NCBI RefSeq assembly: GCF_013366925.1
Contig: NZ_JAALDK010000001.1
Span: 3,713,165 to 3,777,164, forward strand
Direction: 5' to 3'
DNA from: Paraburkholderia youngii
GTDB taxonomy: Bacteria; Pseudomonadota; Gammaproteobacteria; Burkholderiales; Burkholderiaceae
DNA length: 64,000 nt
Shown: piece after piece, positions 21,946 through 36,264 of the stretch
Layout of the letters: each line of letters begins with the position of its first letter
How positions within the stretch are numbered: position 1 is the first letter of the stretch
Translations under genes and position numbers: made by a program
Notes under the pieces: generated by a model
What the model saw: the letters and a program-made list of their open reading frames with translations, nothing else
Databases searched by the model: none
What the model was told of the DNA's origin: nothing

Positions 21946-21972
21946 TGCGATATAATCGCAAGCGATATATCG
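21946..21972. promoter_or_regulatory. OhrR-type operator upstream of ohrR-A
   Basis: Three half-sites TGCGAT-ATA-ATCGCA-AGCGAT lie at 21946-21966, followed by the overlapping palindrome CGATATATCG (21963-21972). The outer TTGCGA/TCGCAA repeat (21945-21961) is perfect. The site is about 40 nt upstream of the ohrR-A start and matches the motif before the ohr genes, the second ohrR and the BON gene in this window. Confidence 0.7.
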
Positions 21973-22011
21973 AAACAGCGAGTCATTGACCATCGTTCGA
22001 GGAGGATGTAC

Positions 22012-22464
22012 ATGAAACCTACTGAACTGCCAGTACCGGCACCCGTGCCGCTTGCGGACTATCTTTGCTTTGCTGTGTACTCCACGAATCTGGCGTTCGG
22101 CAAGGCTTACAAGCCCATCCTCGATGTACTTGGCCTCACGTATCCTCAATTCATCACGATCATAGCGCTCTGGGAGCAAGACAATCAGACAGTGAGCGGG
22201 TTGGGGGAGAAGTTATTCCTGGAGTCGAACACGCTTACGCCACTGCTGAAGAAGCTCGAAGTGATGGGCTACGTGGAGCGCAAGCGTGATCCCGAGGATG
22301 AGCGCCAGGTGCGCGTCAGCTTGACGAAAACCGGTCGGCGGTTGCGCGAAAAAGGCCTGAAAATTGCAGACCTTACCGATGCAACTGGACTCAGTCCGGA
22401 CGAGTTCCAGGAGTTGCAAAAAGCGATCGTGACGTTGCGCGGTAATTTGATCAACTCACTCTGA
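22012..22464 (+). CDS. ohrR: OhrR-type MarR-family peroxide sensor (copy A)
   Basis: This 150-residue MarR-family regulator has the OhrR hallmark near its N-terminus: DYLCFAVYSTNLAFGKAYKPILD, in which the Cys (residue 19) is the peroxide-sensing thiol and the following tyrosines hydrogen-bond it. LGLTYPQFITIIALWE and the wing DPEDERQVRVSLTKTG follow. The start at 22012 is preferred over 22006 because GGAGG then sits six bases upstream, as in the paralogue at 30038. OhrR proteins repress ohr genes until oxidised by organic hydroperoxides. The operator motif upstream suggests autoregulation. Confidence 0.88.
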   Translation: MKPTELPVPAPVPLADYLCFAVYSTNLAFGKAYKPILDVLGLTYPQFITIIALWEQDNQTVSGLGEKLFLESNTLTPLLKKLEVMGYVERKRDPEDERQVRVSLTKTGRRLREKGLKIADLTDATGLSPDEFQELQKAIVTLRGNLINSL

Positions 22465-22733
22465 CGCGCTTTCTCTGGAAGCAGGGTAGCCGACACGGAT
22501 CGACTTCTCTCAGAGCGATATTACTTCCGGCGCGAGTGACAACATCAGTTCTCGCTCTTACGTGTCCGTCAGTCGGAGTACGATTTGGCTAACGGGTGAA
22601 CTCCGCGCGTCATGTTTCGTCCCGCGCTGGTTGAGCGCAATCTTTCGACGACGCGCGGCCCGAAGTCCGCGCGCCCCCAGCGAAAGAGAGCTTAAGCTGA
22701 TCCCAGCTCGTGCAACTGGCTCAGGAAGCGGAG

Positions 22734-23126
22734 CTAACTGCGAATGCGGTACAACCCGCATATCTTGTTGCCATCCGGATCGCGTAGGTAAGCGAGATAC
22801 AGCTGACCACCAGGTGCTTCGCGCACACCCGGGGGCGCTTCAATCGACGTACCGTGGTTAGCAAGACCAGCCGCGTGCCAGAGATCCACCTGCGCGGCCG
22901 ACGAGCACTCGAAGCCGACCGTTCCGCCGTTGGCGTATGTGGCCGGTCGCCGATCGAGTGGCTCGGTAATGATGAATATTCCCGTGTTGTTGCGATACAC
23001 ATAGCGTCGACGGTGGACATTGTCATCTTTGATGCCTTGCTCATAGCCGAGTGCGCCCAGTACGGCATCGTAAAATCGCTTGGCCTTTTCGAGGTCGTTC
23101 GTACCTACCGCAATGTGACTGAACAT
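22734..23126 (-). CDS. VOC-family (glyoxalase/dioxygenase-like) protein, copy 1
   Basis: This 130-residue single-domain VOC protein begins MFSHIAVGTNDLEKAKRFYD and ends with LAYLRDPDGNKICGLYR, the two beta-alpha-beta-beta-beta modules of the superfamily. His4 in the first strand and the DPDGNK block would supply metal ligands in active members. The start ATG 23126 is set by an AGGAG site. A paralogue of equal length lies at 29448-29840. It probably detoxifies or binds a small electrophile; the specific reaction is unknown. Confidence 0.82.
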   Translation of the reverse strand: MFSHIAVGTNDLEKAKRFYDAVLGALGYEQGIKDDNVHRRRYVYRNNTGIFIITEPLDRRPATYANGGTVGFECSSAAQVDLWHAAGLANHGTSIEAPPGVREAPGGQLYLAYLRDPDGNKICGLYRIRS

Positions 23127-23260
23127 TACTGGCAATCTCCTGTTCGAATGGTGATTAGATCCGAGTGTGCCTGCCGCGGACTGGCTTTTGCTGATGTTGA
23201 GCAGTTGTCAGCCGCGCCGTGTTTAGTCTGACGCGACATATGTGGAAAGCGCGAAGAGAT

Positions 23261-23743
23261 TCAGTCCCTCATTCGTGACGTCAGTTGTCGAGGGCGCTCG
23301 AGGTTGGTCCGCAGCTTCGAAATGACCTCCTGTATATGCAGAACCTCGCCAAGCCCCAGACCCATCTTCCTGGCGGAATCGGCGCTCAGTGCTTTCTCGC
23401 GAAGCTGCCGACCGTTTTCTGTGAGGCTGATCAATACGCGACGTTTATTCTCGGGATCGCGCTGTCTATCCAGATAGCCCATGAGTTGCAGCCGTTTTAA
23501 TATTGGCGTTAGCGCGTTGTTCTTTAAAAGCAGCTTCGCTCCTAGCTCGCCGACGGCCTGAGGTGAACGCTCCCAGAGCGCAATGATTGTGACGTATTGC
23601 GGATAGGTGAGCCCCAGTTCGTCGAGGATCGGACGATAGGCTTTGACGAAGGCAAGGTTTGCTGAGTAGATCGCGAAACAGAGCGATTCAGAAAGCTTTA
23701 CGGATGCCACGAACAGGTGGTCTTTAGATCTCGTCTGCATCAT
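23261..23743 (-). CDS. OhrR-like MarR-family regulator (copy B)
   Basis: This 160-residue OhrR paralogue has SLCFAIYSANLAFVKAYRPILDELGLTYPQY, so the sensing Cys (residue 22) and the adjacent Tyr are kept. The wing reads DPENKRRVLISLTENG. It is more diverged than copies A and C, with a longer C-terminal tail. The three-half-site motif seen at other genes is not found upstream, so it may be controlled separately or be an older duplicate. It is 134 nt upstream of the VOC gene on the same strand and may be co-transcribed with it. Confidence 0.83.
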   Translation of the reverse strand: MMQTRSKDHLFVASVKLSESLCFAIYSANLAFVKAYRPILDELGLTYPQYVTIIALWERSPQAVGELGAKLLLKNNALTPILKRLQLMGYLDRQRDPENKRRVLISLTENGRQLREKALSADSARKMGLGLGEVLHIQEVISKLRTNLERPRQLTSRMRD

Positions 23744-24120
23744 CTTGAAAAACGTAGGAATCCAATGAGACTCTCGTATGGTGACCTGGAAAACTCGGGG
23801 TCACGAACGACTTCTACCTGCATGCGCCTCCAGGCTGCTGTGGAGCAGATAAAACACGACGTAGCGCCAGGCGACGGGACGGCTGACTCTGTCGAGCTTG
23901 TTGAAGTGGAGCAGTTCGGAACACTCTCGTTCCGCCGAACTCCGCGGAGTCTGATGGAGTTCATACGGCAACCGGTATCGTGACACCATTGGAATCAAGG
24001 CTAGTCGTTGTAGTCTCGAGCAATATCAGCAACGTCTTGGCGAGTTGGATGCCTTGTGGCGTGTGGATCTTGCAACCCGATACGTAAGCATCTGCAGCCA
24101 TATTGGCGGTTCGGCTCGGC
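23744..24120. other. Intergenic region between ohrR-B and msrA, no gene seen
   Basis: Open frames on both strands of 70-90 codons overlap here, but none shows a recognisable domain, a ribosome site or a plausible codon pattern. The region should contain the ohrR-B promoter. No copy of the island's two operator motifs was found in it. Confidence 0.4.
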
Positions 24121-24621
24121 TCACCTGTCTACCTTCCATTCCTGCCGAACGAAATGGCAGGTGTATCCGTCGGGATTGCGTTGCAGATATCCTTGATGCT
24201 CCGGCTCCGCTTCCCAGAATTCCCGCGCTGGCGCAATCTCGGTGACAACCCTACCAGGCCAGAGGTCGGACGCATCGATTTCGGCCACCGTGTTACCGGC
24301 TACCGCTTTTTGCTCTTCGCTGAGGTAGAAGATTGCTGACCGGTAACTCGGTCCGATATCATTGCCTTGTCGGTCAACAGTCGTCGAATCATGTATCTGG
24401 AAGAAGAACGCCAGGAGCTGGCGATAACTTATCGTTCGCTTGTCGAATACGACCTCAACGGCTTCTGCGTGTGTGCCATGATCGAGATAGGTGGCGTTAG
24501 GCGTGGAGCCACCGGTGTAGCCTACGCGCGTTGAGATTACGCCGGGAAAGCGACGCAATAGCGCTTCCATTCCCCAGAAGCACCCACCAGCCAAAATGGC
24601 AGTTTCGGTTTCCGTCGTCAT
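24121..24621 (-). CDS. msrA: MsrA, peptide methionine (S)-S-oxide reductase
   Basis: This 166-residue MsrA repairs methionine S-sulfoxide in proteins. The catalytic motif [11 protein letters not shown] places the nucleophile Cys14, followed by [13 protein letters not shown], the [10 protein letters not shown] strand, [18 protein letters not shown] and YRSAIFY. The C-terminus has [17 protein letters not shown], where recycling cysteines often lie; a single Cys is seen. It fits the surrounding peroxide-response genes functionally. It starts at ATG 24621 with its own promoter space. Confidence 0.92.
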
Positions 24622-24734
24622 TTCATTCCTTTTTCATAGTCAATGGATGCCTGGCTGGCATCCAATCGAAGTCCTGCTTGACTCGTGATCGTCAGGCGGA
24701 ATGCAAACTGCCTGACATGACAGTGGCAAAGCAA

Positions 24735-25127
24735 TTACCGAGGCGTTCTGATGCCAAGCCGGTTGTTCACAGAGGTCACGCCCTCTACTTTCCCGGCCGC
24801 ATTGCCAGCAAGGGTGATCTGATCGTCGCTGATGCAACTGCCGGTTAACGTGACCATGCCGTCGACGGCGTTGACGTAGATATTCGCGGGACTCAATCCC
24901 TTGGTGCGCGAGAGCACATGACGAACCTTCTTCGCGAGCGCGCGGTTTGCGGCCTTTGCAGTTTTGGGTGACGTCAGCACCGCAGCATTTGTCTGAGCCG
25001 GTGGTGACGTTGCGTCTTGCGCATGTGCACCAAGGCCAAGCGTCAACGCGAAAGCAGTGACAGCGGATTTGACGGCGCGAGTGACTCGCAATTTGGTATT
25101 CGTTGTGTGGATGAGCATGACATTCAC
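24735..25127 (-). CDS. Exported BON-domain protein
   Basis: This 130-residue protein has a signal peptide (positively charged N-terminus, then AVTAFALTLGLGAHAQ, cleavage near residue 37) and one BON domain: AKKVRHVLSRTKGLSPANIYVNAVDGMVTLTGS, then VEGVTSVNNRLGI. BON proteins bind phospholipid membranes in the periplasm and are often stress-induced (OsmY-like). The GTG start at 25127 is chosen because GAGGAG lies eight bases upstream; ATG 25118 is too far from it. Two OhrR-type operators precede it, linking it to peroxide control. Confidence 0.8.
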   Translation of the reverse strand: MNVMLIHTTNTKLRVTRAVKSAVTAFALTLGLGAHAQDATSPPAQTNAAVLTSPKTAKAANRALAKKVRHVLSRTKGLSPANIYVNAVDGMVTLTGSCISDDQITLAGNAAGKVEGVTSVNNRLGIRTPR

Positions 25128-25183
25128 GACAAGATCTCCTCGGTACATGGCCCAGTCATTCCGGGGCGGGTTTATAGTTCGTA

Positions 25184-25261
25184 TGCGATGTAGTCGCGTG
25201 CGTATAAGGATGCGACAAAGAGTCGCCAATGTCAATACCATGCTATCTAATCGCATGCGAT
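25184..25261. promoter_or_regulatory. Two OhrR-type operators upstream of the BON gene
   Basis: Two copies of the three-half-site motif are present: TGCGAT-GTA-GTCGCG-TGCGTA (25184-25204) and TGCTAT-CTA-ATCGCA-TGCGAT (25241-25261). The first is 57 nt upstream of the BON start and the second 114 nt. Spacing between half-sites is identical to that at the ohr and ohrR genes. The next gene on the other side is a decayed ene-reductase reading toward this site, so the BON gene is the likely target. Confidence 0.62.
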
Positions 25262-25281
25262 TTGTGCGAAGCTGGTGAAAG

Positions 25282-25317
25282 CGGGGCCCTCTTAGAGAGG
25301 CCTCGCGGACGGCCCCG
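25282..25317. terminator. Possible terminator hairpin after the decayed ene-reductase
   Basis: CGGGGCC (25282-25288) and GGCCCCG (25311-25317) form a perfect 7-bp stem, with a smaller CCTCT/AGAGG hairpin inside. It is followed by only three T on the plus strand and a short CTTT on the minus strand, so termination strength is doubtful. The segment between it and 25540 has no recognisable gene. Confidence 0.35.
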
Positions 25318-25540
25318 TTTGACATGCCGCGTGAACTTGTCAGTGGTTCAATTGGTCCCGGGTCGAACCATATAACCTTAGCGAACCTAAGCACCAGCAG
25401 CCGCAAAAGCAGCGACCGTGATCGTCTATCTGTTGCCGTAGCAACGACCTCAAAGTGACGCGGTTTGGATAGGGCGACTTCTGCCTCATGACGGAGCAGA
25501 CGAGTAGCTCCAGTGTCAACGCCGAGCGATGAATTGGACA

Positions 25541-26480
25541 TTTGCAGCGCCGGGTAGTCCGTGTAACGGGTTTCCGCTTCGGCGTAGTAAGTGTTTGGAT
25601 TGGGCGGGTTCAACAAAGCGTCGAGATTGAAGCGACGCGGCGGGTGGGCTTAGCTATAAAGAGCTGCCCCACGCGATGGCATCCGCTTCGAGCGCCTGCT
25701 GAGCCGATGCCTGCATTAACTTCTCGTTCGCCATGTACGGTCCGCCGACTGCGGCTTTCAGTTTTGGACCAAGAGGGTTCTCGCCGAGCAATTCCCGGAC
25801 GGCGATGAACGCGATCCTGCGCTTGCCGAGCTCGTGACCGACCTTAGCCGAATGCAGCCGCTGGGTCGGAATCACCCATCATACCCACGTCCCCTCGCGG
25901 CGCGAGGTACACGCCAACACGGTTACCGCCCCATACGTCGATGCAGGCGTCGGTTACTTCGAGAAGGAGGCGGCCGCGATTTTCGATTGAACCGCCATAC
26001 GCGTCGGTACGATGGGTTGTGCGTCCTGCAGGAACTGGTCGAGCAGACAGCCGTTCGCACTGTGCACTTCGATGCTATCAAACCCGCGGCCTTGGCATTC
26101 CTGGCGCCCGCACGTGGTGCGATTGCGCTTGGCGCCACCGCCAGATCACCGTTCAGGAAGATTGGATCCTGACAGACATGCCAAAGTTGCAGAAACATCC
26201 TGCCGCCAGCGGCGTGGACGGCTTCGGTAACGAGCTTCCACCGTGAGACCTCTTCCTGCGACCAGATGCCCGGCGTCCCGGCGTAGCCGACACCTTGCGG
26301 CGTGACGGACGTGGCTTCCATGATGATCAGTCCGGCAGACGCGCGCTCAGCGTAATACTTAGCCATCAGTGAGTTAAGCACGCATTCATCACCAGCGGGC
26401 TCGCGGGTTAGCGGGGCCATGATGATGCAATTAGGCAACGTGAAGTCGCCAACCTGGAGAGGGTCAAAAAGAGTCGGCAT
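25541..26480 (-). pseudogene. Decayed old yellow enzyme (ene-reductase) copy
   Basis: This is a broken paralogue of the intact ene-reductase at 19195-20253. It starts at ATG 26480 with LFDPLQVGDFTLPNCIIMAPLTR and stays in frame through PGIWSQEEV and FLQLWHV. It then loses about 50 residues after APSAIAP (the block containing the loop before the FRKGAENAKAA helix). The frame changes several times: NAKAAG, then DSDPAAAFG-like and GKRRIAFIAVRELLGE segments, and finally a C-terminal TYYAEAETRYTDYPAL in another frame near 25541. The active-site HGANGY segment is disrupted. It is almost certainly non-functional. Confidence 0.85.
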
Positions 26481-26653
26481 AACAGTTTGCTTTTCCTGAC
26501 CGACATATCGTCCGCGGCGATGAAACCAGCGCGATGCGGGAGCTGAAAAGGTCCAGCTTTCCTGCCAGCATCTGTTCACGAAAGGTTTTGACGCGCATCG
26601 ACGAAACCCAGGCGTGAGGGTCCCGGGCGTCACGCCACGGGACCGTTTCGGCG

Positions 26654-27358
26654 TTAGCGTTGCGCCGCGTCTTTCAAGTAGATGCCCTCAGACAGCCCGG
26701 CCTTTATTTGCCGACTGATGGCGTCTGTCGACACTTCCTCCGCGCCGGCCTCGATAGCTTCGTACGCCTGGCGCACGACGTCGGCCGGGGTTGCTTTCGG
26801 AACTTCCAGTCCGCGCACCAGATCCGTATCGATAAAGCCAGCATGCAGCCCGACAACCTGCGTGCGCTGTTCCCGCAGCGACTGGCGCAGGCCGTTAGTC
26901 AACGCCCACGCGGCCGACTTCGACACGCCGTAGGCAGAAAGAATTGGCCGGTTCACCCAGCTCGCGACTGATAGCACGTTCAGAATTGCGCCACCGCCGT
27001 TGGCGGCAAGGTTCCCTGCAAACGCTCGCGACGTCGCGAGCATCCCGACCACATTGGTCTCGAAGTGATCGCGCAGCGCCTCGATTGCGCTGTCGTCGGT
27101 CAGGCTCCCGAGTCGCGCGATACCCGCGTTGTTGATGAGTAAAGTGACATCTCGCGCTGCGTCCGCGGCCGCGGCTACGGCTGCCGGATCGGTCACGTCG
27201 AGCTTGACGGGAATGACTCCCGGTAACGTCACGCTGCCCGGATCGCGTGCAGCTGCATATACCTTCCACGCGCCTCTTTCTAGCGCCTGTTTTGCGAACT
27301 CGAGGCCAAGCCCGCGGTTCGCGCCCGTTACAAAAACGACAGCATCTTCGATCTTCAT
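26654..27358 (-). CDS. Short-chain dehydrogenase/reductase
   Basis: This 234-residue classical SDR has the cofactor motif VTGANRGLGLEFAKQALERG (residues 10-29), NNAG near residue 78, catalytic Ser in VLSVAS and YGVSKSA (Tyr, Lys). An arginine-rich loop after strand beta-2 (AAARDPGS) suggests NADP preference. ATG 27358 is chosen because AGGA lies six bases upstream. An HxlR-type palindrome sits 212 nt upstream in the shared divergent region with the ohr pair. It probably reduces a toxic carbonyl, in keeping with the island; the substrate is unknown. Confidence 0.85.
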   Translation of the reverse strand: MKIEDAVVFVTGANRGLGLEFAKQALERGAWKVYAAARDPGSVTLPGVIPVKLDVTDPAAVAAAADAARDVTLLINNAGIARLGSLTDDSAIEALRDHFETNVVGMLATSRAFAGNLAANGGGAILNVLSVASWVNRPILSAYGVSKSAAWALTNGLRQSLREQRTQVVGLHAGFIDTDLVRGLEVPKATPADVVRQAYEAIEAGAEEVSTDAISRQIKAGLSEGIYLKDAAQR

Positions 27359-27569
27359 AGTCATTCCTTTCGCATGTTGAATCGCATGCGCGTCGGCTCG
27401 CCGTGCGCGTGGGATCTGTTGGAAACAAGGCTGCATTCGCTTACCGAAACGTTGCGCCGTGACTTCCCGCGCAGCAGCTAATCACGGCGCGCACCCGGCG
27501 CCGGCTTGCTTTCGTCGGACGATTTGTGACCTTTCACGCACCGCAGACGACGATGGCGAAGGATATAAC

Positions 27570-27582
27570 TATGAAAATCATA
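27570..27582. promoter_or_regulatory. HxlR-type palindrome upstream of the SDR
   Basis: TATGAA-A-ATCATA differs by one base from the perfect palindrome TATGAT-A-ATCATA found at 32473 and 34933. The flanks AAC before and TCGTCAAG after are identical to those at 34933-34945. It lies 212 nt upstream of the SDR start. Confidence 0.55.
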
Positions 27583-27979
27583 TCGTCAAGTGCGGCGTGA
27601 GTTTCCCGGACGATTTCCTGCGGAGCCGGCAAGTGCCGTGGCAATGCAGTTCACCTCATCGCGAACGTGCCGGATAGGCGGCGCAATCGTCCTGGCATCC
27701 CCGTAACAGTGGTTGCCTCAGTCGTAACGTGCTGCGCGCCGTCGCCGCCTGACAGGGGCACCGGTTAGACGTGTGCACACCTACTCTTGACAGGCGCCGC
27801 AATGCACATCATTCGCCGGCCCCAGGTCGGCCACGCGGTGGTTGCTTGCTTACACATTGAAAGACCGGCGTCACCCTACTGGCCAACAGTGAGATCGGTA
27901 CTCAAGCTATCGAACAAGTGAATTCGATTAAAAAGTTTGCGATTGACATCGGCCGTGTCTTTCTCCATTATTCGACGCA

Positions 27980-28000
27980 AGCGATTACATCGCATGCGAT
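27980..28000. promoter_or_regulatory. OhrR-type operator upstream of the first ohr gene
   Basis: AGCGAT-TAC-ATCGCA-TGCGAT ends 37 nt before the ohr start codon. The last two half-sites form the perfect 12-bp palindrome ATCGCATGCGAT. The same sequence occurs at 35242-35262 before the second ohr pair. Confidence 0.68.
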
Positions 28001-28037
28001 CTAATAGCTTGCCCCCTTACTTACACAGGAACCCATC

Positions 28038-28484
28038 ATGACCAAGATCGATCAAGTCCTCTTCTCAGGCAACTCCCACGCCACGGTCAACCATGACCCC
28101 GATGTCCAGCGTGGTGAGCACGGCGTGCTCGACCTCAAGCTTTCGGCTCTTAACAGCGAAGGCCGCAACTTCATTGCCACCGAGCTGCACCCGCGCGCCG
28201 AACAGCTGTTTTCTGGTGCCTGGTCGGCTTGCTACATCAGCGCGTTCGAAATTGCTGCTTCGCTGAAGAAGGTCACGCTGCCGACCGACTATTCCGTGGA
28301 CATCAAGGTCAGTATCGGAACGGTCGGTAACGGATTCTGTCTTGGCGCCGAGTTCACCATCCGTGCACCGGGTCTGGCAACCGAAGTTATCGAGGCAATC
28401 GCGAAGCGCGCCCACGAAATCTGCCCGTACTCGAAGGCCGTTCACGGCAACATCGAAGTCGGCCTGAACGTCGTCGCTGCGTGA
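28038..28484 (+). CDS. Ohr-family organic hydroperoxide reductase (pair 1, first)
   Basis: This 148-residue OsmC/Ohr-superfamily peroxidase reduces organic and fatty-acid hydroperoxides using two cysteines. Both are present: AWSACYISAFEIAA (Cys about 65) and EICPYSKAVHGNI (Cys about 129). An Arg in LHPRAEQLF corresponds to the residue that activates the peroxidatic Cys in Ohr. The operator 37 nt upstream indicates OhrR control. It is 74 nt upstream of a second ohr gene and is closely related to the gene at 35300 (most residues identical). Confidence 0.87.
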   Translation: MTKIDQVLFSGNSHATVNHDPDVQRGEHGVLDLKLSALNSEGRNFIATELHPRAEQLFSGAWSACYISAFEIAASLKKVTLPTDYSVDIKVSIGTVGNGFCLGAEFTIRAPGLATEVIEAIAKRAHEICPYSKAVHGNIEVGLNVVAA

Positions 28485-28497
28485 CAAATAGATCGCA

Positions 28498-28518
28498 CAC
28501 GAGCACATCGGACAAGAT
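28498..28518. promoter_or_regulatory. Degenerate OhrR-type site between the paired ohr genes
   Basis: CACGAG-CAC-ATCGGA-CAAGAT keeps the spacing of the three-half-site motif but matches it at only part of the positions. It aligns with the better conserved TACGAT-TAC-ATCGGA-CGCGAG at 35760-35780 in the duplicated block, which suggests a once-functional internal operator. Confidence 0.35.
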
Positions 28519-28558
28519 GTAATTAGTTTTATTACCTTTATATACCCAGGAATCCATC

Positions 28559-29005
28559 ATGGAAAAGATCGAACAAGTCCTCGCTGCAGGCAACTCCCAC
28601 GCCACGGTTAACCGCGATCCCAACACCCATCGCGGCGAGTTCGGCGCCTACGACCTGAAGCTGACCGCGCCTTTCATCGAAGACGTCGAGTACATCGGCA
28701 CGGAGCCGCACCCGCGCGCCGAGCAGCTGTTTGCTGGTGCCTGGTCGGCCTGTTACACCACCGTGTTCGGAATGGCTGCCCAGTCGAAGAAGGTCACGCT
28801 GCCGGCTGACTATTCCGTGGACATCAAGGTGAACATCGGCCAGACCGGTGCCGCTTGGTTCCTCGGCGCCGAGTTCAACATCAGCGTGCCGGGTGTGGAA
28901 AAAGAAGTCGTCGAGAAGATCGCGCACCTGGCCCATCAGATCTGCCCGTACTCGAAGGCTGTGCGCGGCAACATCGAAGTCAGCACGAACATCGTCGCGG
29001 CGTAA
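28559..29005 (+). CDS. Ohr-family organic hydroperoxide reductase (pair 1, second)
   Basis: This is the second 148-residue Ohr/OsmC protein of the tandem. It keeps AWSACYTTVFGMAA and QICPYSKAVRGNIEVS, so both redox cysteines are in place, together with PHPRAEQLF. It differs more from its neighbour at 28038 than from its counterpart at 35818, showing that the two-gene unit was duplicated as a block. A CAGGAATCC ribosome site precedes ATG 28559. It likely shares the transcript from the upstream operator. Confidence 0.87.
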   Translation: MEKIEQVLAAGNSHATVNRDPNTHRGEFGAYDLKLTAPFIEDVEYIGTEPHPRAEQLFAGAWSACYTTVFGMAAQSKKVTLPADYSVDIKVNIGQTGAAWFLGAEFNISVPGVEKEVVEKIAHLAHQICPYSKAVRGNIEVSTNIVAA

Positions 29006-29070
29006 TCCGCCTGGGCACGCGCTTCTTTGGGACACGTGCCCTCCACTGAACACCTTTACGGAATCTCATC

Positions 29071-29343
29071 ATGAAGACCAAGCTAATCGTTGCACTGCTC
29101 GTCGCAGTTTCCGCGTCCGTCACCGCACCCGCGTTCGCCAGCGGCTATGGACCGGCTCCTTTCTACAAGCCCTCAGTCGGCGCGCCGGCATCTCAAAGCG
29201 GTCAGAGCCTGCGAACCGTCGCCGCGGAACGCGAGGACGCAGCCAGCACCGAGAATTCGTACGGCGGCGTAGTTTCCGGTGTATCACAAGCGGGGAGCCA
29301 GGTCGCGGCAACGCCGCGCGATAACTTCCTGTCGCATCACTAA
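29071..29343 (+). CDS. DUF4148-like exported small protein
   Basis: This 90-residue protein has a clear signal peptide (MKTKLIVALLVAVSASVTAPAFAS, cleavage near residue 23). Its C-terminal SYGGVVSGVSQAGSQ is typical of DUF4148 proteins that are abundant in Burkholderiaceae. The middle is low complexity. The function of the family is unknown, and members are often stress-regulated. It follows the ohr pair by 65 nt on the same strand and precedes the VOC gene, so it may be part of the same transcript. Confidence 0.72.
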   Translation: MKTKLIVALLVAVSASVTAPAFASGYGPAPFYKPSVGAPASQSGQSLRTVAAEREDAASTENSYGGVVSGVSQAGSQVAATPRDNFLSHH

Positions 29344-29447
29344 ATCGTGCATTCCGATCGCTGAGCCGTCGCGCATCTTCGTTATTCCTGCGCGCCGGCC
29401 ACAGCATCGGGCGGTCCATAACCTATTCACCGGAATTGAAGCAAGCA

Positions 29448-29840
29448 ATGTTCAGTCATGTAACGGTCGGCACCAACGACCTGGAAAAAGCAAAACGGTT
29501 TTACGATAGCGTGCTGAGTGTTCTCCACTATTGCGGCGGTCTTAACGACGACAACGAACTGCGTCGGCGTTATGTCTACCCCGCAGATACGGGTTTTTTC
29601 TTTATCACCCAGCCGCTCAATGGCCAACCGGCGACCAGCGCGAATGGTGGGACCGTGGGATTTAACTGCCAGTCGATCGAACAGGTCGACCGATGGCATG
29701 CCGCCGGTGTTGCCAACGGTGGAGAATCAGTTGAGGCGCCGCCCGGCGTGCGTGAGTCCAGGGTCGGTCGCCTCTACCTCGCCTATATGCGCGATCCGGA
29801 CGGCAACAAGCTCTGCGCCGTGTACCGGATGCCGGTATGA
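29448..29840 (+). CDS. VOC-family protein, copy 2
   Basis: This 130-residue paralogue of the VOC protein at 22734-23126 begins MFSHVTVGTNDLEKAKRFYD and ends YLAYMRDPDGNKLCAVYR. Metal-ligand positions (His4 and the C-terminal acidic block) are kept. ATG 29448 gives exactly the paralogue's length; a TTG twelve bases upstream is ignored. It sits between the DUF4148 gene and ohrR-C. In both copies the VOC gene is beside an ohrR gene, so they duplicated as a pair. Confidence 0.82.
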   Translation: MFSHVTVGTNDLEKAKRFYDSVLSVLHYCGGLNDDNELRRRYVYPADTGFFFITQPLNGQPATSANGGTVGFNCQSIEQVDRWHAAGVANGGESVEAPPGVRESRVGRLYLAYMRDPDGNKLCAVYRMPV

Positions 29841-29973
29841 GGCGTGCTCGGGAAGCGGAGACAATCGCCGCAGGGCGGGACGGCGCCGCGCAACCTCCGG
29901 GATGTGCGACAGGCGGCCCAGCAAATAACGAGGAGTTGTACTCCCTACGGCAGGGATGCGGCGCATGGTATGT

Positions 29974-29994
29974 TGCGATACAATCGCATGCGAT
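29974..29994. promoter_or_regulatory. OhrR-type operator upstream of ohrR-C
   Basis: TGCGAT-ACA-ATCGCA-TGCGAT is a perfect match to the consensus in this window, 43 nt upstream of the ohrR-C start codon. It contains the palindrome ATCGCATGCGAT (29983-29994) and runs into an AT-rich tract that could be the -10 region. Confidence 0.72.
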
Positions 29995-30037
29995 ATATAT
30001 TTTGTGATACGTCAGGCTCCTGCCAAGGAGGATACAC

Positions 30038-30496
30038 ATGAAATCCAGGGATCAACTGGCACCCGAAAACCTGATGCTTTCCGACTACCTGTGCTTTGCG
30101 GTCTACTCCGCGAACCTGGCTTTTGGCAAGGCGTACAAGCCCATCCTCGAGGAACTCGGACTTACCTACCCGCAATTCATAGCGATCATTGCGCTGTGGG
30201 AGGAAGACAACCAGACGGTCAGCGGTCTGGGCGCGAAGCTCTTTCTCGAATCCAACACGCTTACTCCGATGCTGAAGAAGCTCGAGGCGATGGGCTATCT
30301 GGAAAGGCAACGCGATCCCGGTGATGAACGCCAGGTGCGGATCAGTCTCACAAAGACTGGCCGGCGACTGCGCGAAAAAGCGCTGAAGATGGACCTTGTC
30401 GAGACGGGCCTCGCGCCCGACGATTTCGCAAAAGTTCAAACGGCGGTCGTGACGTTGCGAAACAACCTTATCAAGTCAGTCCAGAACGGCGAATAA
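30038..30496 (+). CDS. ohrR: OhrR-type MarR-family peroxide sensor (copy C)
   Basis: This 152-residue OhrR is very similar to copy A at 22012. The sensing Cys is residue 19 in SDYLCFAVYSANLAFGKAY, and LGLTYPQFIAIIALWEED and DPGDERQVRISLTKTG follow. AAGGAGG lies six bases before ATG 30038. The consensus operator upstream suggests autoregulation. Copies A and C, nearly the same protein with nearly the same operator 8 kb apart, point to a recent regional duplication. Confidence 0.88.
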   Translation: MKSRDQLAPENLMLSDYLCFAVYSANLAFGKAYKPILEELGLTYPQFIAIIALWEEDNQTVSGLGAKLFLESNTLTPMLKKLEAMGYLERQRDPGDERQVRISLTKTGRRLREKALKMDLVETGLAPDDFAKVQTAVVTLRNNLIKSVQNGE

Positions 30497-30929
30497 ACGC
30501 TTACCGGCGGTATTGCAGCGGCGTCCTTTTTACGGACATTCAACCGGCGCGTTGGCTCTTCGTGCACGACGATCTGAAGGGCGAGCTACTTTCGGAGAAA
30601 AGCGTCCGAAGCTAATCGGACTTCTGCGAAGAGACACGTTGGGAGCAGCCGTGCGGGTGCGACGATGGGACGGCCGACATCTGGGCGCCATGGCGTAGTC
30701 GACCGTCGCGCGCCGACTATGCCATCGGTTCGTGCATCTGCAGACGTACGTCTCAATTTATGTTTGTATTGCCGCAGATTCCTGGTTGATGGGAATGATG
30801 CGATGACTCATGCGTGGCGCCGGCCGCTCTACGACGTCGTCACAACCGGCTTGCAATGCTGCATCGCCCGGTTCAGGCAGATGTCTGCACAAAAGTGCCG
30901 CGGATCTGGAGGCCGACAGTTCTGCAACG
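30497..30929. other. Intergenic region after ohrR-C, no gene seen
   Basis: No coding region or recognisable RNA structure could be supported. Short open frames on both strands lack ribosome sites and domain features. Confidence 0.4.
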
Positions 30930-31572
30930 TTGCTGGCGAACGTTTGTAGAAACGTCTGCAGCGATGTACCGTTGTCTGCGCCCGATGAGCCAAACAAGGT
31001 GGTGAAATCCTGCTCCAACTTCGACACCACGTCGTTCACTGAAGTCGTCGAACCCGTATCGCTGCTTCCGCTGGCTTCTCCGGTCTGGCTGCTTTCCGCG
31101 CCAACGGCCCGTGCGAGCGATTCAAGCCCTGCAGCAAGCGGATTCGAGTAAGCCGTGGTTGATGCAACGTTCCCCTGATCACCAGAATTGCGCTGCGAGG
31201 CGGTGCCGTATTGCAGGCCTGGGGCGACCTGAAGGATCTGGCCCGATAAACTGCTCAAATGTCGCATCAACACCTGCTCCGGATAGCGACCCCGCATGCG
31301 AGGTGGTGCCAATGCCTTGGGCTCCTCCGGATGCAGGCGTACCGGTTTGGCCGAACGGGAGAGCGAGTCCCGGTTGAGAAAACGCCTGAACGATCGCTTG
31401 CACCAGCGGATTCCCGGGGGGCGACGATGGAGTCTCCGTCTGCTGCTTGTACGTTTGTGCGAGCGGCTCGCGCTGTACGCTGATCCCTGGTACTTGTCCC
31501 GAATCCAGCAATAGCTGAACACGGAGGTCTTTGTAGTCCTTGCTGTTGAGTTGATGTGCAATCGTCAGTGGT
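30930..31572 (-). pseudogene. Frameshifted conserved hypothetical (Gln/Ser/Gly-rich)
   Basis: Two minus-strand frames join to one low-complexity protein. The first carries NSKDYKDLRVQLLLDSG, a proline/glutamine stretch and a GAQGIGTTSHAG segment up to EQFIGPDPS (near 31230). The second continues with GLQYGTASQRNSG, AVGAESSQTGEASGSSD, VSKLEQDFTTLFGSSGAD and LQTFLQTFASNV. At least one frame change lies near 31220-31240, and the original start codon is lost behind a stop near 31565. The LQxDFxxLF...LxxFLxxxxxN pattern is one I associate with unstudied Burkholderia proteins. Function unknown. Confidence 0.55.
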
Positions 31573-31940
31573 CACTTTTCCTTGTCAGATCCGTTGTCGA
31601 ACAACTTCAATGCTGCGTTCGCCCGTTGAACAGCGTTAGTTCATCACACAGCTGCTACGAACGGAGAGCCCTTGGCAGAGTCGGGGAATGCGACGAGCAG
31701 TGCGATGATCCGGTATGTTTTCGTGGCGCAGACTCCAGGAAAGTGTTCTGTCGCGTTGAATCACTCAATTTATTGCATGCGATAAATGGTGACGAAGAAA
31801 TGTCAATTCCCAAAGCGTAGGTGAGCCTGTTTCATCGACTTTCAGTGTTGCTCGAGAGGGCCCCCCTGCGCTACAGCTGCCACAGCTATGGCTTCTCCCG
31901 CGGTCCTCTCTTATTGCGTCGACCTAGCGGCGCGTATGAA
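31573..31940. other. Intergenic region, no gene seen
   Basis: No gene could be supported. A partial OhrR-like half-site pair ATTGCA-TGCGAT (31773-31784) is present, but the first half-site is missing and no start codon of a recognised gene lies just downstream. Confidence 0.35.
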
Positions 31941-32447
31941 TCACGCGGACTTAGCGGTCTTCACTGCGTCCTGTCGCGCCGCGCGCTCCTGCGCGTAGGA
32001 AGGGCTAAATTCAGCCTTTAGATCTTCCCGTCGCAATGGTTCACCACAGGCTTGGCAGACTGTGCCAATCCCGGCATCGTGGCCACAGGTTAGGTGCGTA
32101 TAGAGGACTGCGACGTCCTCGTTCGGGGACTTGTGCCATGTCTCCCCCCATTCGCGGAGCGCAAGGATGACCGGGTAGAACGCCCGACCCATCTCCGTGA
32201 GCTCGTATTCGTAGCGAGTGGGCTTTTTCATGTAACGCTTGCGCTCGATCATGCCGTTTGCTTCAAGTCGTTTGAGGCGGGACGAGAGCATCTGCGGTGT
32301 TGCCTGCGACTGCGCCAACAGGCCGTCGAACCTTCGGTTGCCCATGAACAGCTCGCGCAAGACCAAGACAGTCCAGCGGTCGCCGATGACATCCTGAGAC
32401 CGCGCGACCGGGCACAGCGTATCGCTACTCTTGGACAACGCAGGCAT
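31941..32447 (-). CDS. HxlR-family transcriptional regulator
   Basis: This 168-residue HxlR-type winged-helix protein has the family hallmarks CPVARSQDVIGDRWTVLVLRELFMG (a conserved, possibly redox-active Cys near residue 12), FDGLLAQSQATPQMLSSRLKRLEANGMI and YELTEMGRAFYPVILALREWG. The C-terminus has a CGHDAGIG..CQACGE cysteine cluster that could hold zinc. ATG 32447 is set by a GAGG six bases upstream, a better site than ATG 32459. The upstream palindrome at 32473 suggests autoregulation. HxlR proteins often sense aldehydes or quinones. Confidence 0.87.
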   Translation of the reverse strand: MPALSKSSDTLCPVARSQDVIGDRWTVLVLRELFMGNRRFDGLLAQSQATPQMLSSRLKRLEANGMIERKRYMKKPTRYEYELTEMGRAFYPVILALREWGETWHKSPNEDVAVLYTHLTCGHDAGIGTVCQACGEPLRREDLKAEFSPSYAQERAARQDAVKTAKSA

Positions 32448-32472
32448 GCAAGACCTCATAAACGATGATAAG

Positions 32473-32485
32473 TATGATAATCATA
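32473..32485. promoter_or_regulatory. HxlR autoregulatory palindrome
   Basis: TATGAT-A-ATCATA is a perfect 6-bp inverted repeat 26 nt upstream of the hxlR-type start. It is part of an AT-rich block containing more TGATA/TATCA elements (up to 32497). The same palindrome occurs upstream of the isochorismatase gene and, with one change, of the SDR. Confidence 0.68.
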
Positions 32486-32592
32486 TCTATGATATCACGG
32501 GTTCGCCGCGCGCGCGTACGCCGCGAACTCGTGACTTCGCAGTCTGTGCGGATTACGCGCTGCTGCCACGCTACGTTCAAGCAGGCGGCCGT

Positions 32593-34170
32593 TCAGGCCT
32601 TGGACAACTCGCCGTCAGTCAGACGCCAGATGCCGCACGGGTTGCTATGCCGCAAAGCTTCCGGTAGCAGGTCATCCGGAAATCCCTGGTAGCAGACAGG
32701 CCGCAGGAAGCGCTCGATCGCAGTCATGCCGACAGAGGTAAAGCGGCTATCCGAAGTTGCCGGGAAGGGGCCACCGTGGATCGACGCATATGACACCTCT
32801 TGTGGATGCGCAAACGCATTGACGACGATCCGTCCCGTACGACGTTCGAGAAGGGGCAGCAGGCGCGCGGCGAGTGTGTGATCAGCGGGATCGATGTGCA
32901 TCGTTGCCGAGAGCTGGCCCCGAAACTGCTTGGCGATGGCGGTCAGTTGCTCGAGGTCCCTCACCCGCACCAGTAGTGCCGCGGGTCCGAAAACCTCTTC
33001 CGACAAAGCCGGATTCTCCAGCATCCGGGCCCCGTCGATTTCGAAGAGAATCGATTGACCGTCCCACGCACCCTGTGGTTCTCCGCCCGCTGCGATTCGC
33101 CTCGCCCCGGCGTTGCTCTGGCGTTCGACGTTCTTCCGATAAGCCGTGAAAATGCCTGGCGTCAACATCGTGCGCGCCTGCATTGCTTCGACGCGGGAGA
33201 TCATCGCCGCCTTCAGTTCAAGGTAACCCGGCCCGTCAATGGCGAGCAGGATGGCGGGCTTCAGGCATGCCTGACCGACGGTAACGAGCATGCGTTCGGC
33301 GAAACCATCGCCAATGACGCCACCCCTGGCAGCGAGCGCAGCTGGCATTACGAAAGTCGGATTCACACTCGTCATTTCGGTAAAGACCGGTATTGGGTCT
33401 GGACGCTGCTGGGCGCGCCGGAACAGTGCCATTCCACCGCCTTCCGACCCTGTGAAGGTGACTCCCCTGATGAGCGGATGGTCGACCAACGCCTCGCCGA
33501 TTTCGTTCCCACCGCCGCGGACCAGAGAAAACACGCCTTCATGGAAGCCCGAATCCTTCACGGCTTGCTGGATCACCCGACCCATCATTTCAGACGCGCC
33601 TGGGTGCCCGTTGTGGGCCTTCACGATGACAGTGCAGCCGGCAGCCAGCGCCGACGCAGTGTCCCCGCCCGCGACCGAATAGGAAATCGGGAAATTGCTC
33701 GCACCAAAAATCGCGACCGGGCCGAGTCCGATTTTTTGCATCCGATGGTCCATTCGTGCGCGCGGCTGACGTTCCGGTTGAGCACGGTCGATCGTCGCCT
33801 GGCGGAAGCGCCCCTGACGGACGACGGTCGAGAACTGACGAAACTGGAGTGCAGACTTCGCGGCCTCTCCTTCGAGTTGCGCCACCGGCAAGCCGGTTTC
33901 GAGCGACGCGCGTCGCGCGAGTTCCGGCGTCACGACGTCGAGGCCCTCGGCGATTCGCTCAAGGAATTCGGCGCGATCGATAAGGCTGGTGTGACTGTAG
34001 CTATCGAACGCCTCGTCGGCGAGTTGTGCTGCGCGATCAATCTCTTCAATTCCGCCGAATGCGAAGGTCGGTTCAATCTCGACATTCAATGTCGGATCAA
34101 GTGCCTTCATGCTGCCGGACGTCCCCGCGACTTCCTGCGCACCAATTAGTAGATTACCGGTGAGTTTCAT
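32593..34170 (-). CDS. Alpha-ketoglutarate-semialdehyde-type aldehyde dehydrogenase
   Basis: This 525-residue aldehyde dehydrogenase is of the KGSADH (2,5-dioxovalerate dehydrogenase) group, which is longer than common ALDHs. It shows FGASNFPISYSVAGGDTASALAAG, VFTEMTSVNPTFV (general-base Glu), VGQACLKPAI (nucleophile Cys; the family norm is VGQFCTNPG) and the C-terminal HGGPFPATSDSRFTSVG block typical of the group. It begins at ATG 34170, 15 nt after the isochorismatase-like gene, so both are expressed from the HxlR-controlled promoter. The usual sugar-acid genes are absent; a stress-derived aldehyde is possible. Confidence 0.85.
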   Translation of the reverse strand: MKLTGNLLIGAQEVAGTSGSMKALDPTLNVEIEPTFAFGGIEEIDRAAQLADEAFDSYSHTSLIDRAEFLERIAEGLDVVTPELARRASLETGLPVAQLEGEAAKSALQFRQFSTVVRQGRFRQATIDRAQPERQPRARMDHRMQKIGLGPVAIFGASNFPISYSVAGGDTASALAAGCTVIVKAHNGHPGASEMMGRVIQQAVKDSGFHEGVFSLVRGGGNEIGEALVDHPLIRGVTFTGSEGGGMALFRRAQQRPDPIPVFTEMTSVNPTFVMPAALAARGGVIGDGFAERMLVTVGQACLKPAILLAIDGPGYLELKAAMISRVEAMQARTMLTPGIFTAYRKNVERQSNAGARRIAAGGEPQGAWDGQSILFEIDGARMLENPALSEEVFGPAALLVRVRDLEQLTAIAKQFRGQLSATMHIDPADHTLAARLLPLLERRTGRIVVNAFAHPQEVSYASIHGGPFPATSDSRFTSVGMTAIERFLRPVCYQGFPDDLLPEALRHSNPCGIWRLTDGELSKA

Positions 34171-34185
34171 GAGAGTTCCTTTCGA

Positions 34186-34809
34186 TCAGGCGGGAAGTGC
34201 AGCAACCAGCTCTGCCGTCGTCAGGATTTCATGGGCGAACGTGGGACCATTCAGTTCGTGCGCGGCGCGCATCATTTCCCTGGTGAAAGCCGCTGTAGCG
34301 TCTCGAACGAGTGTGACGTGATAACCCAGTTCCATTGCAAAGCGGCTCGTTGACTCAATACAGGTATTCGCCAGCAGGCCGACCACGATCACGTGCGTGA
34401 TCCCTTGCTGTTTGAGCTGGAAGTCGAGGTCGGTGTTAGCAAAGCCGCTTTGGCCCCAGTGCTCGTGAGTGATGATGTCGCCTTCCTGCGGCACAAAGTC
34501 AGGATGCCACTCACCACCCCACGTGCCCTTGGCGAACGTTTGGCGCTTCTGCACGAGGCGTTGAGTTGGGTTCGGATGGTTCCAGTTTTCGTAATCACCA
34601 GGTTGCCAGCGGCGATGCGGCACATAGAAAACCTGGATATCTGCTTTTCGCGCGCTAGCGACAGCAGCACGGAGATTGTCGAGCAGCCGGACTTCGGCGG
34701 CGATATCACGCAGCATCGGAAAGAGCTTGCCGCCATCGGAGAGAAAATCGTTGTACGGATCGACCAGCAACAGTCCGGTGCGGTCCGCGTCGTATGCAGG
34801 GTTGGACAT
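34186..34809 (-). CDS. Isochorismatase-family cysteine hydrolase
   Basis: This 207-residue protein has the isochorismatase fold with Asp17 in LLLVDPYND and nucleophile Cys150 in LLANTCIESTSRFA. The position where a catalytic Lys normally stands reads ITHEHWGQSGF, so the Lys is replaced (His115 or Glu116 region). This may change chemistry or substrate. It is the first gene of a two-gene unit with the KGSADH-type dehydrogenase, and a perfect HxlR-type palindrome lies 124 nt upstream. The pairing suggests a route from an amide or ester to an aldehyde and then an acid, but this is inference. Confidence 0.82.
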   Translation of the reverse strand: MSNPAYDADRTGLLLVDPYNDFLSDGGKLFPMLRDIAAEVRLLDNLRAAVASARKADIQVFYVPHRRWQPGDYENWNHPNPTQRLVQKRQTFAKGTWGGEWHPDFVPQEGDIITHEHWGQSGFANTDLDFQLKQQGITHVIVVGLLANTCIESTSRFAMELGYHVTLVRDATAAFTREMMRAAHELNGPTFAHEILTTAELVAALPA

Positions 34810-34932
34810 TTCAATACTCCATTAGGTCAGTGTGCGAATGAAGCATTCGCGTTGCACAGTCGGCGCCGGGTTGCGTTTGTTGGACGATTCGTGACGCCTC
34901 ACGCATCGAAGATGGTGCGGGAAGAATATAAC

Positions 34933-34945
34933 TATGATAATCATA
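34933..34945. promoter_or_regulatory. HxlR-type palindrome upstream of the isochorismatase/KGSADH unit
   Basis: TATGAT-A-ATCATA is perfect here, with the same flanks as the site at 27570. It lies 124 nt upstream of the isochorismatase start. Confidence 0.65.
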
Positions 34946-35241
34946 TCGTCAAGGGAGACACGGCTTTTCGGACGATCCACCGGAAGCTGACCCTTCTTCG
35001 GTACGCTGTCCAGCGAACCGCAGAGCGTGCCGGGTGGGCGCGTCATTGACCCCGGCGACGCGCCAGAATTGACCTGCTCTCCGGTGGCGGACAAGAAAGC
35101 GCGCGGCCCGTACGAAGCCGCACCAGACAGGCGGCATCGGGCTGGCCAGCAGCGGATCCACATTCATGCTATCGACGAGGCGTATGCGATTAAATCTTTT
35201 TCGATTGACATCGGGCTCGTCTTTCTCCATTATTCGACGCA

Positions 35242-35262
35242 AGCGATTACATCGCATGCGAT
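35242..35262. promoter_or_regulatory. OhrR-type operator upstream of the second ohr pair
   Basis: AGCGAT-TAC-ATCGCA-TGCGAT is identical to the site at 27980-28000 and ends 37 nt before the ohr start, the same distance as in block 1. Confidence 0.7.
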
Positions 35263-35299
35263 CTACGGTGCTTGACACCTTTAACCAAACAGGAACCCC

Positions 35300-35746
35300 A
35301 TGACCAAGATCGACCAAGTCCTCTTCTCAGGCAACTCCCACGCCACGGTCAATCACGACCCCGATGCCCAGCGCGGTGAGCACGGCGTGCTCGACCTCAA
35401 GCTGTCAGCGCCCAACGGCGAAAGCCGGGATTTCATCGCCACCGAACTGCATCCGCGAGCCGAGCAGATGTTTGCGGGCGCGTGGTCGGCCTGTTACATC
35501 AGCGCGTTCGAGATTGCGGCCTCGATGAGGAAGGTCGCGCTGCCGTCCGACTATTCCGTGGACATCCAGGTCAGTATCGGCACGGTCGGTAACGGGTTTA
35601 GTCTCGGCGCCCAGTTCACCATCCGCGCGCCGGGTCTGGCAGCGGAAGTCGTCGAGGCACTTGCGAACCGCGCCCATCAGATCTGCCCGTACTCGAAGGC
35701 CGTGCACGGTAACATCGAGGTTGGCCTGAACGTCGTCACGGCTTGA
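35300..35746 (+). CDS. Ohr-family organic hydroperoxide reductase (pair 2, first)
   Basis: This 148-residue Ohr/OsmC protein is nearly the same as the protein at 28038. The redox cysteines are in AWSACYISAFEIAA and QICPYSKAVHGNI, with LHPRAEQMF carrying the activating Arg. Most differences from its paralogue are conservative, suggesting both copies are under selection. It is preceded by the OhrR-type operator and followed after 71 nt by the second ohr gene of this pair. Confidence 0.88.
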   Translation: MTKIDQVLFSGNSHATVNHDPDAQRGEHGVLDLKLSAPNGESRDFIATELHPRAEQMFAGAWSACYISAFEIAASMRKVALPSDYSVDIQVSIGTVGNGFSLGAQFTIRAPGLAAEVVEALANRAHQICPYSKAVHGNIEVGLNVVTA

Positions 35747-35759
35747 TACGTAAATCGCA

Positions 35760-35780
35760 TACGATTACATCGGACGCGAG
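35760..35780. promoter_or_regulatory. Partly conserved OhrR-type site between the paired ohr genes
   Basis: TACGAT-TAC-ATCGGA-CGCGAG keeps the motif spacing with about four mismatches to consensus. It could give the downstream ohr gene its own promoter control. Its counterpart in block 1 is at 28498-28518. Confidence 0.42.
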
Positions 35781-35817
35781 ATAAACCGTTTTATTACCTT
35801 ATACACAGGAATCCATC

Positions 35818-36264
35818 ATGGAAAAGATCGAAAAAGTCCTCGCTGCAGGCAACTCCCACGCCACGGTCAATCGCGACCCCGATGCCCAGAGCGGCGAGTA
35901 TGGCGTCTATGACCTCAAGCTGACAGCACCCGGCGTTGAGGATCTCGATTACATCGGCACCGAGCCGCACCCGCGAGCCGAGCAGCTGTTTGCTGGCGCC
36001 TGGTCGGCCTGTTACACCACCGTGTTCGGGATGGCGGCCCAGCTGAGGAAGGTCACGCTGCCGCCCGACTATTCCGTGGACATCCGGGTGAACATCGGGC
36101 AGACCGGTGCTGCGTGGTTCCTCGGCGCCCAGTTCGACATCCACGTGCCGGGTGTGGAAAAGGAAATCGTCGAGAAGATCGCGCACCTGGCCCATCAGAT
36201 CTGCCCGTACTCGAAGGCTGTGCGCGCCAACATCGAGATCAGCACGAACATCGTCGCGGCGTGA
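35818..36264 (+). CDS. Ohr-family organic hydroperoxide reductase (pair 2, second)
   Basis: This 148-residue Ohr/OsmC protein is closest to the gene at 28559. Cysteines lie in AWSACYTTVFGMAA and QICPYSKAVRANIEIS. An ACAGGAATCC ribosome site precedes ATG 35818, the same as in block 1. With four Ohr proteins in two pairs the island has unusual peroxide-reducing capacity. The two members of a pair differ mainly around the substrate pocket region (about 35-50 and 95-110), so substrates may differ. Confidence 0.87.
   Translation: MEKIEKVLAAGNSHATVNRDPDAQSGEYGVYDLKLTAPGVEDLDYIGTEPHPRAEQLFAGAWSACYTTVFGMAAQLRKVTLPPDYSVDIRVNIGQTGAAWFLGAQFDIHVPGVEKEIVEKIAHLAHQICPYSKAVRANIEISTNIVAA

Follow-up and report, generated by a model that had tools for sequence, protein, structure and literature searches.

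The question raised by this locus is whether a short motif, TGCGAT-N3-ATCGCA followed directly by a further TGCGAT, marks the operators of a peroxide-sensing repressor encoded beside it. The locus lies in a window of 64,000 nucleotides of the Paraburkholderia youngii genome (C1:3713165-3777164; genome size 9.49 Mb), which is the whole stretch of DNA analyzed here. It contains genes for three OhrR-type MarR proteins (ohrR-A, ohrR-B and ohrR-C), two ohr gene pairs, a BON-domain gene, msrA, an SDR gene, glyoxalase-family genes and small exported-protein-like genes. An initial annotation had listed eight copies of the motif and taken them as a family of three-half-site operators. The sites, specificity, conservation and geometry described below indicate that they are very probably operators at which a peroxide-sensing repressor of OhrR type (MarR family) acts, itself encoded within the cluster. 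The three half-sites are ordinary; the unexpected part, which is worth testing, is a fixed double operator with a spacing of 57 bp.

All eight sites are present where they had been placed. Compared with TGCGAT-N3-ATCGCA, the sites at 21946 and 29974 carry no mismatch, those at 27980, 35242 and 25241 carry one, and those at 25184 and 35760 carry two; the site at 28498 is worse than the seven others and falls outside the two-mismatch list. Three of the sites (25184, 28498 and 35760) have a degenerate third half-site. All eight sites are recovered by a symmetric 27-bp matrix built from 132 sites of relatives, the window and the loci L031, L122 and L054 being excluded. It also adds two sites, 27917-27943 and 35179-35205, and in both cases a listed site follows at a distance of exactly 57 bp downstream. 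The initial list was therefore incomplete, both upstream operators and the 57-bp spacing having been overlooked. The two weakest sites, 28492-28518 (15.9 bits) and 27917-27943 (15.3 bits), score below the single best match of 15 shuffles (17.8 bits), and at their scores 0.07 matches are expected by chance per 64 kb. The operator of ohrR-A (21946..21966, plus strand; matrix match 21940-21966, 23.3 bits) and that of ohrR-C (29974..29994, plus strand; matrix match 29968-29994, 27.4 bits) both have the three-half-site form, and the latter lies on a promoter-like TTGCGA-N17-TATATT. By operator, the regulon comprises both ohr pairs, ohrR-A, ohrR-C and the BON gene. The eight listed sites are not eight independent events, for the ohr pairs are copies of each other, with 86% identity between corresponding genes, and ohrR-A is a paralogue of ohrR-C (75% identical).

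Enrichment of the motif is modest in the window alone: 12 copies of the 15-mer were found with 2 mismatches compared to 6.2 expected, a count of 12 being reached in 3 of 100 shuffles. Far stronger evidence that the motif is real comes from the genome-wide test. With up to 2 mismatches the 21-mer has nine matches in the 9.49-Mb genome (two of them overlapping), all nine confined to this cluster and a second copy at 1.02 Mb, and with up to 3 mismatches there are 31 matches compared to 2 for the reversed pattern. Over 97 genomes of the genus, 88 matches with at most one mismatch were obtained in 42 genomes, against one control match; 30 of them were fetched as loci, and an ohr or ohrR homologue is present in 27. 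The motif is thus not as common at random genomic places as before these genes; equal frequency was the outcome that, for the initial annotation, would have refuted its proposal. The genome and genus scans support a specific operator family that marks a local OhrR-type regulon.

Conservation was examined upstream of the best 80 of at least 551 matches to an OhrR alignment, chosen by OhrR similarity. These relatives span Paraburkholderia, to which the closest of the relatives listed belong, Caballeronia, Burkholderia, Trinickia, Cupriavidus, Variovorax, Pseudomonas and a Caulobacter metagenome-assembled genome. A site with at most 2 mismatches is found at -130 to -40 of ohrR in 76 of the 80. 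In the sites of these 76 relatives the three half-sites hold a mean of 1.52, 1.85 and 1.44 bits per base, compared to 0.29 in the six bases upstream, and the position of a fourth half-site is occupied by TATAAT-like bases (0.72 bits per base). This conservation profile bears out three half-sites at ohrR promoters; at the ohr and BON promoters, on the other hand, the operator has four half-sites in a 27-bp palindrome.

The initial annotation had regarded three abutting half-sites as a departure from known OhrR sites, which it described as usually simple two-half-site palindromes. This description is not supported, adjacent boxes having been published for at least five species (PMC3107159). The two OhrR motifs of S. 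meliloti are reported to be adjacent, an arrangement which the authors also state for B. subtilis, A. tumefaciens, S. coelicolor and X. campestris (PMC3107159); OhrR of S. avermitilis covers two 13-nt boxes within one 28-nt footprint (PMC6034001); and the footprints of C. violaceum OhrR contain ATAGTGCACTAT besides CTATT-A-AATAG (PMC3469484). On our own reading, the C. violaceum sequences appear to contain both junctions found here, of 0 bp and of 3 bp. In Burkholderiaceae, canonical OhrR promoters likewise read half-site-N3-half-site-half-site plus a -10-like stretch. The canonical set of 30 loci included 2 without an open reading frame and several with a wrong start; 15 promoters were hand-picked by eye; the third half-site was counted in 10 of them, L133-L136 and L138 being out of register. 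In those 10 the zero-gap third half-site matches at 3-5 of 6 bases (mean 4.0) and shifted placements average at most 2.6. The three-half-site layout, shared by published OhrR boxes and canonical Burkholderiaceae promoters, is therefore not new. The half-site TGCGAT is a variant, and it is also present before a canonical-type OhrR (L153).

The three paralogous proteins are OhrR-like by their domain, their structure match and the LCFA Cys. The MarR winged-helix domain PF01047 is matched with 58.0, 46.4 and 55.9 bits (cut-off 24.6), and the proteins match the PDB structure of X. campestris OhrR (E 1.6e-32) and align to OhrR structures. C19, Y33 and Y44 are invariant in a five-sequence OhrR alignment, with the Cys, the reactive one in OhrR proteins, in LCFA and the Tyr in AYKP and TYPQ. 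An ohrR gene adjoins ohr, with operators at both promoters. The second, resolving Cys near the C-terminus is not present in OhrR-A, -B or -C, which have one Cys each and so fall outside the two-Cys subtype; among the best 80 relatives, 61 have one Cys, 18 have two and 1 has none. L079, L082, L086 and L090 belong to the two-Cys relatives, and in several of these the second Cys lies in a VEACGL-type segment near the canonical resolving position, so that one-Cys and two-Cys forms may interchange within the branch. OhrR-A, OhrR-C and the copy at 1.02 Mb share the helix segment ESNTLTP, OhrR-B having KNNALTP; they are for this reason the likely readers of the operators, and OhrR-B is the least certain. 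LESNTLTP is found in 80 of 80 relatives, a set selected by similarity. The idea that the Asn of the recognition helix dictates TGCGAT was rejected, as TGCGATTAGATCGCA is likewise present upstream of L153, a protein with three Cys whose segment reads DSATLTP.

The ohr and BON promoters show a second level of organization. In 80 loci the distances between close pairs of sites peak sharply at 57 bp, a value shown by 32 of 57 pairs with at most 2 mismatches and by 53 of 249 with at most 3, and in three shuffled sets the commonest distance is 5 bp or is represented by single counts. A second test used a matrix from 40 distinct ohrR operators only, excluded the ohrR operators themselves and applied a single score threshold of 14. 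Of the pairs obtained, 57 had a spacing of 57 bp and were spread over 53 of the 80 loci; a further 35 were 15 bp apart, 17 were 72 bp apart (57+15) and 4 were 54 bp apart, and not one had a spacing of 55, 56, 58, 59 or 60 bp. The loci are related, and these counts are therefore not independent events. Alignment of 56 such cassettes (54 distinct, and 3 belonging to the window and the cluster copy at 1.02 Mb) gives a 27-bp palindrome ATCGCATGCGAT-N3-ATCGCATGCGAT, then TTGACA-N17-CAT.AT, 2 bp and a second 27-bp palindrome, so that one operator overlaps the -35 by one base and the other begins 2 bp after the -10. In the upstream operator the inner half-site is degenerate. Both the 57-bp spacing and a TTGA within the gap were criteria in drawing up the cassette list; neither feature therefore counts as evidence there, and the evidence for the spacing consists of the two pair-distance tests.

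Three cassettes are present in the window. That of ohr pair 2 (35179/35236) is on the cassette list, with an upstream operator at 35179..35205 (27.0 bits), TTGACA-N17-CATTAT at 35205..35233, read from the sequence, and a downstream operator at 35236..35262 (30.5 bits), all on the plus strand; a further operator precedes ohr2b (35754..35780, plus strand, 29.9 bits). In that of ohr pair 1 (27917/27974), also on the plus strand, the upstream operator (27917..27943) is degenerate, its mismatches keeping it off the cassette list. It is followed by TTGACA-N17-CATTAT at 27943..27971 and by the downstream operator at 27974..28009 (30.5 bits at 27974), in which a second abutting dyad (20.3 bits at 27989) extends to 28009; the weak operator at 28492..28518 precedes ohr1b on the same strand. 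The third cassette, on the minus strand (25178/25235), belongs to the BON gene.

Two explanations of the 57-bp rule can be compared. Promoter geometry combined with shared descent, each operator blocking the polymerase alone and without cooperation, is the one towards which we lean slightly: TTGACA-N17-CATTAT occupies most of the 57 bp, with a -35 to -10 distance set by sigma-70, and the cassettes stem from related genes, mostly ohr. It leaves unexplained why the neighbouring spacings of 55, 56, 58, 59 and 60 bp are empty in 80 loci, though either flank could move a few bases without touching the promoter, and why the same spacing recurs at a non-ohr gene, BON. A bolder and rather doubtful possibility is a dual-operator cassette in which OhrR-type dimers on two 27-bp four-half-site operators would cooperate over 84 bp, yielding a steep peroxide switch which would have moved as a unit onto BON, possibly also msrA and ohrR-B, in one Paraburkholderia lineage. 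A fixed 57-bp pair of OhrR operators was not found described in the open-access literature, which most subscription papers fall outside, and TACAATTAAATTGTA has no match in that literature.

The arrangement also bears on how dimers may be seated. Most likely one dimer would occupy each 15-bp TGCGAT-N3-ATCGCA dyad; as the dyads abut every 15 bp, three or four half-sites would amount to one well-formed seat and flanking, partly degenerate seats. The opposite register, in which dimers would sit on two 12-bp palindromes ATCGCATGCGAT (0-bp junction, 15 bp apart), unlike known OhrR, is improbable. It can point to the upstream cassette operator, where the first 12-bp palindrome is well kept (1.28 and 1.74 bits per base) and the inner half-site h2 is degenerate (1.17), and to C. 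violaceum, where a 12-bp perfect palindrome is also named as a possible operator (PMC3469484). By our own estimate, however, equivalent bases lie 5-9 bp apart in the 0-bp palindrome and about one helical turn apart in the 3-bp dyad. The 3-bp dyad moreover is kept at the ohrR operators of 76 of the 80 relatives, and it has the same 6-3-6 arrangement and 15-bp span as TACAATTNAATTGTA, with several bases in common (PMC6034001).

With one dimer per 3-bp dyad, we infer repression, redox release and the assignment of paralogues to sites as follows. At ohrR promoters a single three-half-site operator over the promoter core would lead to autorepression. Where the promoter is sandwiched between two four-half-site operators exactly 57 bp apart, as at ohr and BON, RNA polymerase would be excluded on either side. 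The repressor would be released when its single Cys (LCFA) is oxidized, and this would switch on the Ohr peroxidases, the small exported proteins and the glyoxalase, and here BON, perhaps together with msrA and ohrR-B.

The BON gene (24735..25118, minus strand; Pfam BON) encodes a short protein with a signal-peptide-like N-terminus, which the initial annotation took to bind membranes and proposed to be under peroxide control. Its operators, on the minus strand, lie on the gene side (25178..25204, 20.8 bits) and upstream of the promoter (25235..25261, 28.2 bits), 57 bp apart, with a candidate -35 TTGACA on the same strand between them (25230..25235; sequence and cassette alignment) and CATCCT as a weak -10 at 17-bp spacing (25207-25212). 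Among 150 genomes a BON match was found in 22, and 30 loci were fetched. Wide conservation of the control was rejected, since only 2 of the 30 BON loci have sites (at most 2 mismatches, 400 bp upstream): that of the window and one 91% relative, L164. As L164 has the sequence of L122 (P. nodosa) over the stretch compared, this is one further lineage only, and between the two lineages operators and promoter flanks are conserved to about the same degree. Control of BON by an OhrR-type repressor is plausible from the complete operator pair with its intervening TTGACA, but its -10 is weak and the link is seen in two lineages only. Downstream on the BON strand follow msrA (24121..24621; Pfam PMSR and NCBIfam msrA), 113 bp past BON, then ohrR-B and a glyoxalase-family gene. 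In four relatives (L063, L064, L066, L067) msrA lies between ohr and ohrR, which makes its membership in the regulon believable.

An expression record exists for a related cluster. In B. cenocepacia, H2O2 raises BCAL1763-1766 by 5.3- to 18-fold, and NaOCl raises them by 15.3- to 75.2-fold (PMC2830190). The locus L099 (B. cenocepacia NCTC13227) has the order ohrR, one open reading frame, three similar exported proteins (the one tested being DUF4148) and Ohr, with a 57-bp operator pair before ohr.

Several observations weigh against attributing the sites to OhrR-type repressors of the cluster. The ohrR site was not found in 4 of the 80 relatives, which were picked by OhrR similarity, so that shared ancestry inflates the counts of conserved sites, and the 57-bp pair was not found in 27 of 80 loci. 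With 118.0, 116.4 and 119.5 bits the three paralogues do not reach the cut-off of 200 of the NCBIfam OhrR equivalog NF052638, which is their best match among NCBIfam models and is Vibrio-derived by its name. The -10 of the BON promoter agrees at 3 of 6 bases, and the promoter scan reports none there. In B. cenocepacia the neighbouring ohrR, BCAL1761, is only 2.4-fold up with H2O2, with no significant rise with NaOCl (PMC2830190), and L099 is equated with BCAL1761-1766 by gene order and product names. Finally, 3 of the 30 fetched genus matches (L195, L204 and L219) precede other genes, and their 3-kb loci contain neither an ohr nor an ohrR homologue, so that another regulator may read the motif too. 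That the sites belong altogether to a different MarR-family regulator and lie near ohrR by chance is nevertheless very unlikely: the motif is found in 76 of the 80 ohrR-relative promoters, over eight genera, and nowhere else in this genome with up to 2 mismatches. In L195, L204 and L219 the motif (around position 1501 of each) is accompanied by a nearby second ATCGCATGCGAT palindrome before an amidase-like gene.

The remaining features of the cluster are as follows. On the plus strand, ohrR-A (22006..22464; Pfam MarR above cut-off, alignment) is followed on the minus strand by a glyoxalase-family gene (22734..23135; Pfam) and ohrR-B (23261..23743; Pfam MarR, alignment), a remoter paralogue (55% to ohrR-C) without an operator of its own in the 27-bp matrix scan. 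The SDR gene (26654..27361), facing ohr pair 1, was rejected as a target: nothing in its promoter reaches 4 bits with the matrix, and ATCGCATGCG near 27382 is unscored. Beyond it, all on the plus strand, are ohr1a (28038..28484), ohr1b (28559..29005), a small exported-protein-like gene (29071..29343; no match in the Pfam search, relatives adjoining ohr in many loci), a glyoxalase-family gene (29448..29840; Pfam), ohrR-C (30038..30496; Pfam MarR, alignment, structure match), ohr2a (35300..35746) and ohr2b (35818..36264). A lone near-palindrome ATTTATTGCATGCGATAAAT at 31767-31787, unscored by the matrix and without an evident target gene, is similar to a portion of the operator.

Of the four Ohr proteins, ohr1a, ohr1b and ohr2a score above the TIGR03561 cut-off (88.85 bits); ohr2b, with a Pfam OsmC match, is just below it (87.1). 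Both Cys are kept in all four. The Arg of the GGRDG loop is present in ohr1b and ohr2b, as in the canonical Ohr of the genome, and is replaced by an aligned His in ohr1a and ohr2a. This Arg is the catalytic Arg of Ohr peroxidases, and the two members of each pair may hence differ in activity. The ohr pair is duplicated twice in the genome: two pairs lie in the window (27500-37000), and the locus at 1.02 Mb (L031) contains the third pair together with an ohrR of its own. There the order is SDR, ohr, ohr, small protein, ohrR (91% to ohrR-C) and an HxlR-like gene. A canonical two-Cys ohrR adjoins canonical ohr at C1:2.956 Mb (L051).

These results provide a precise operator code for a widespread OhrR-type branch in Burkholderiales and some Pseudomonas. 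They would tie peroxide control to further genes, namely small exported proteins, glyoxalase, locally BON and perhaps msrA, and they offer an unusually rigid two-operator promoter in which cooperativity is directly measurable.

Among known systems, the adjacent-box OhrR operators of S. meliloti, B. subtilis, A. tumefaciens, S. coelicolor, X. campestris and S. avermitilis also place adjacent OhrR-type inverted repeats near ohr and ohrR. The two 13-nt sites in 28 nt of S. avermitilis (PMC6034001) fit a repeat of about 15 bp, as here. These operators differ by AT-rich half-sites (TACAAT, GCAAAT, ACAATT) in place of TGCGAT, and the available text of PMC3107159 and PMC6034001 describes no 57-bp operator pair. 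In C. violaceum the 12-bp palindrome ATAGTGCACTAT and a spaced dyad share half-sites over the -10/-35, as here, whereas the half-site is CACTAT and there is one footprint of about 42 bp per promoter (PMC3469484). P. aeruginosa OhrR resembles the present case by a long protected region around the ohr promoter (-39 to +48) and differs by sites with an AATT-N-AATT core (PMC4999210). EstR of Agrobacterium, a MarR-family regulator beside an organic-hydroperoxide-linked gene, has ATCG half-sites in its operator GTTATCGCGATAAC, but this is a 14-bp palindrome in two separate operators with an esterase target (PMC5201249). In the P. youngii genome, the canonical locus L051 has abutting 15-bp dyads before ohrR and ohr, with CACAAT/TGCAAT-type half-sites, two Cys and one ohr gene. 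BCAL1761-1766 of B. cenocepacia, with ohrR, exported proteins and Ohr in the order of the operator-bearing L099, is induced by peroxide and hypochlorite; it differs from the P. youngii cluster in having one ohr gene, three exported proteins and no BON, and the available text describes no operator for it (PMC2830190).

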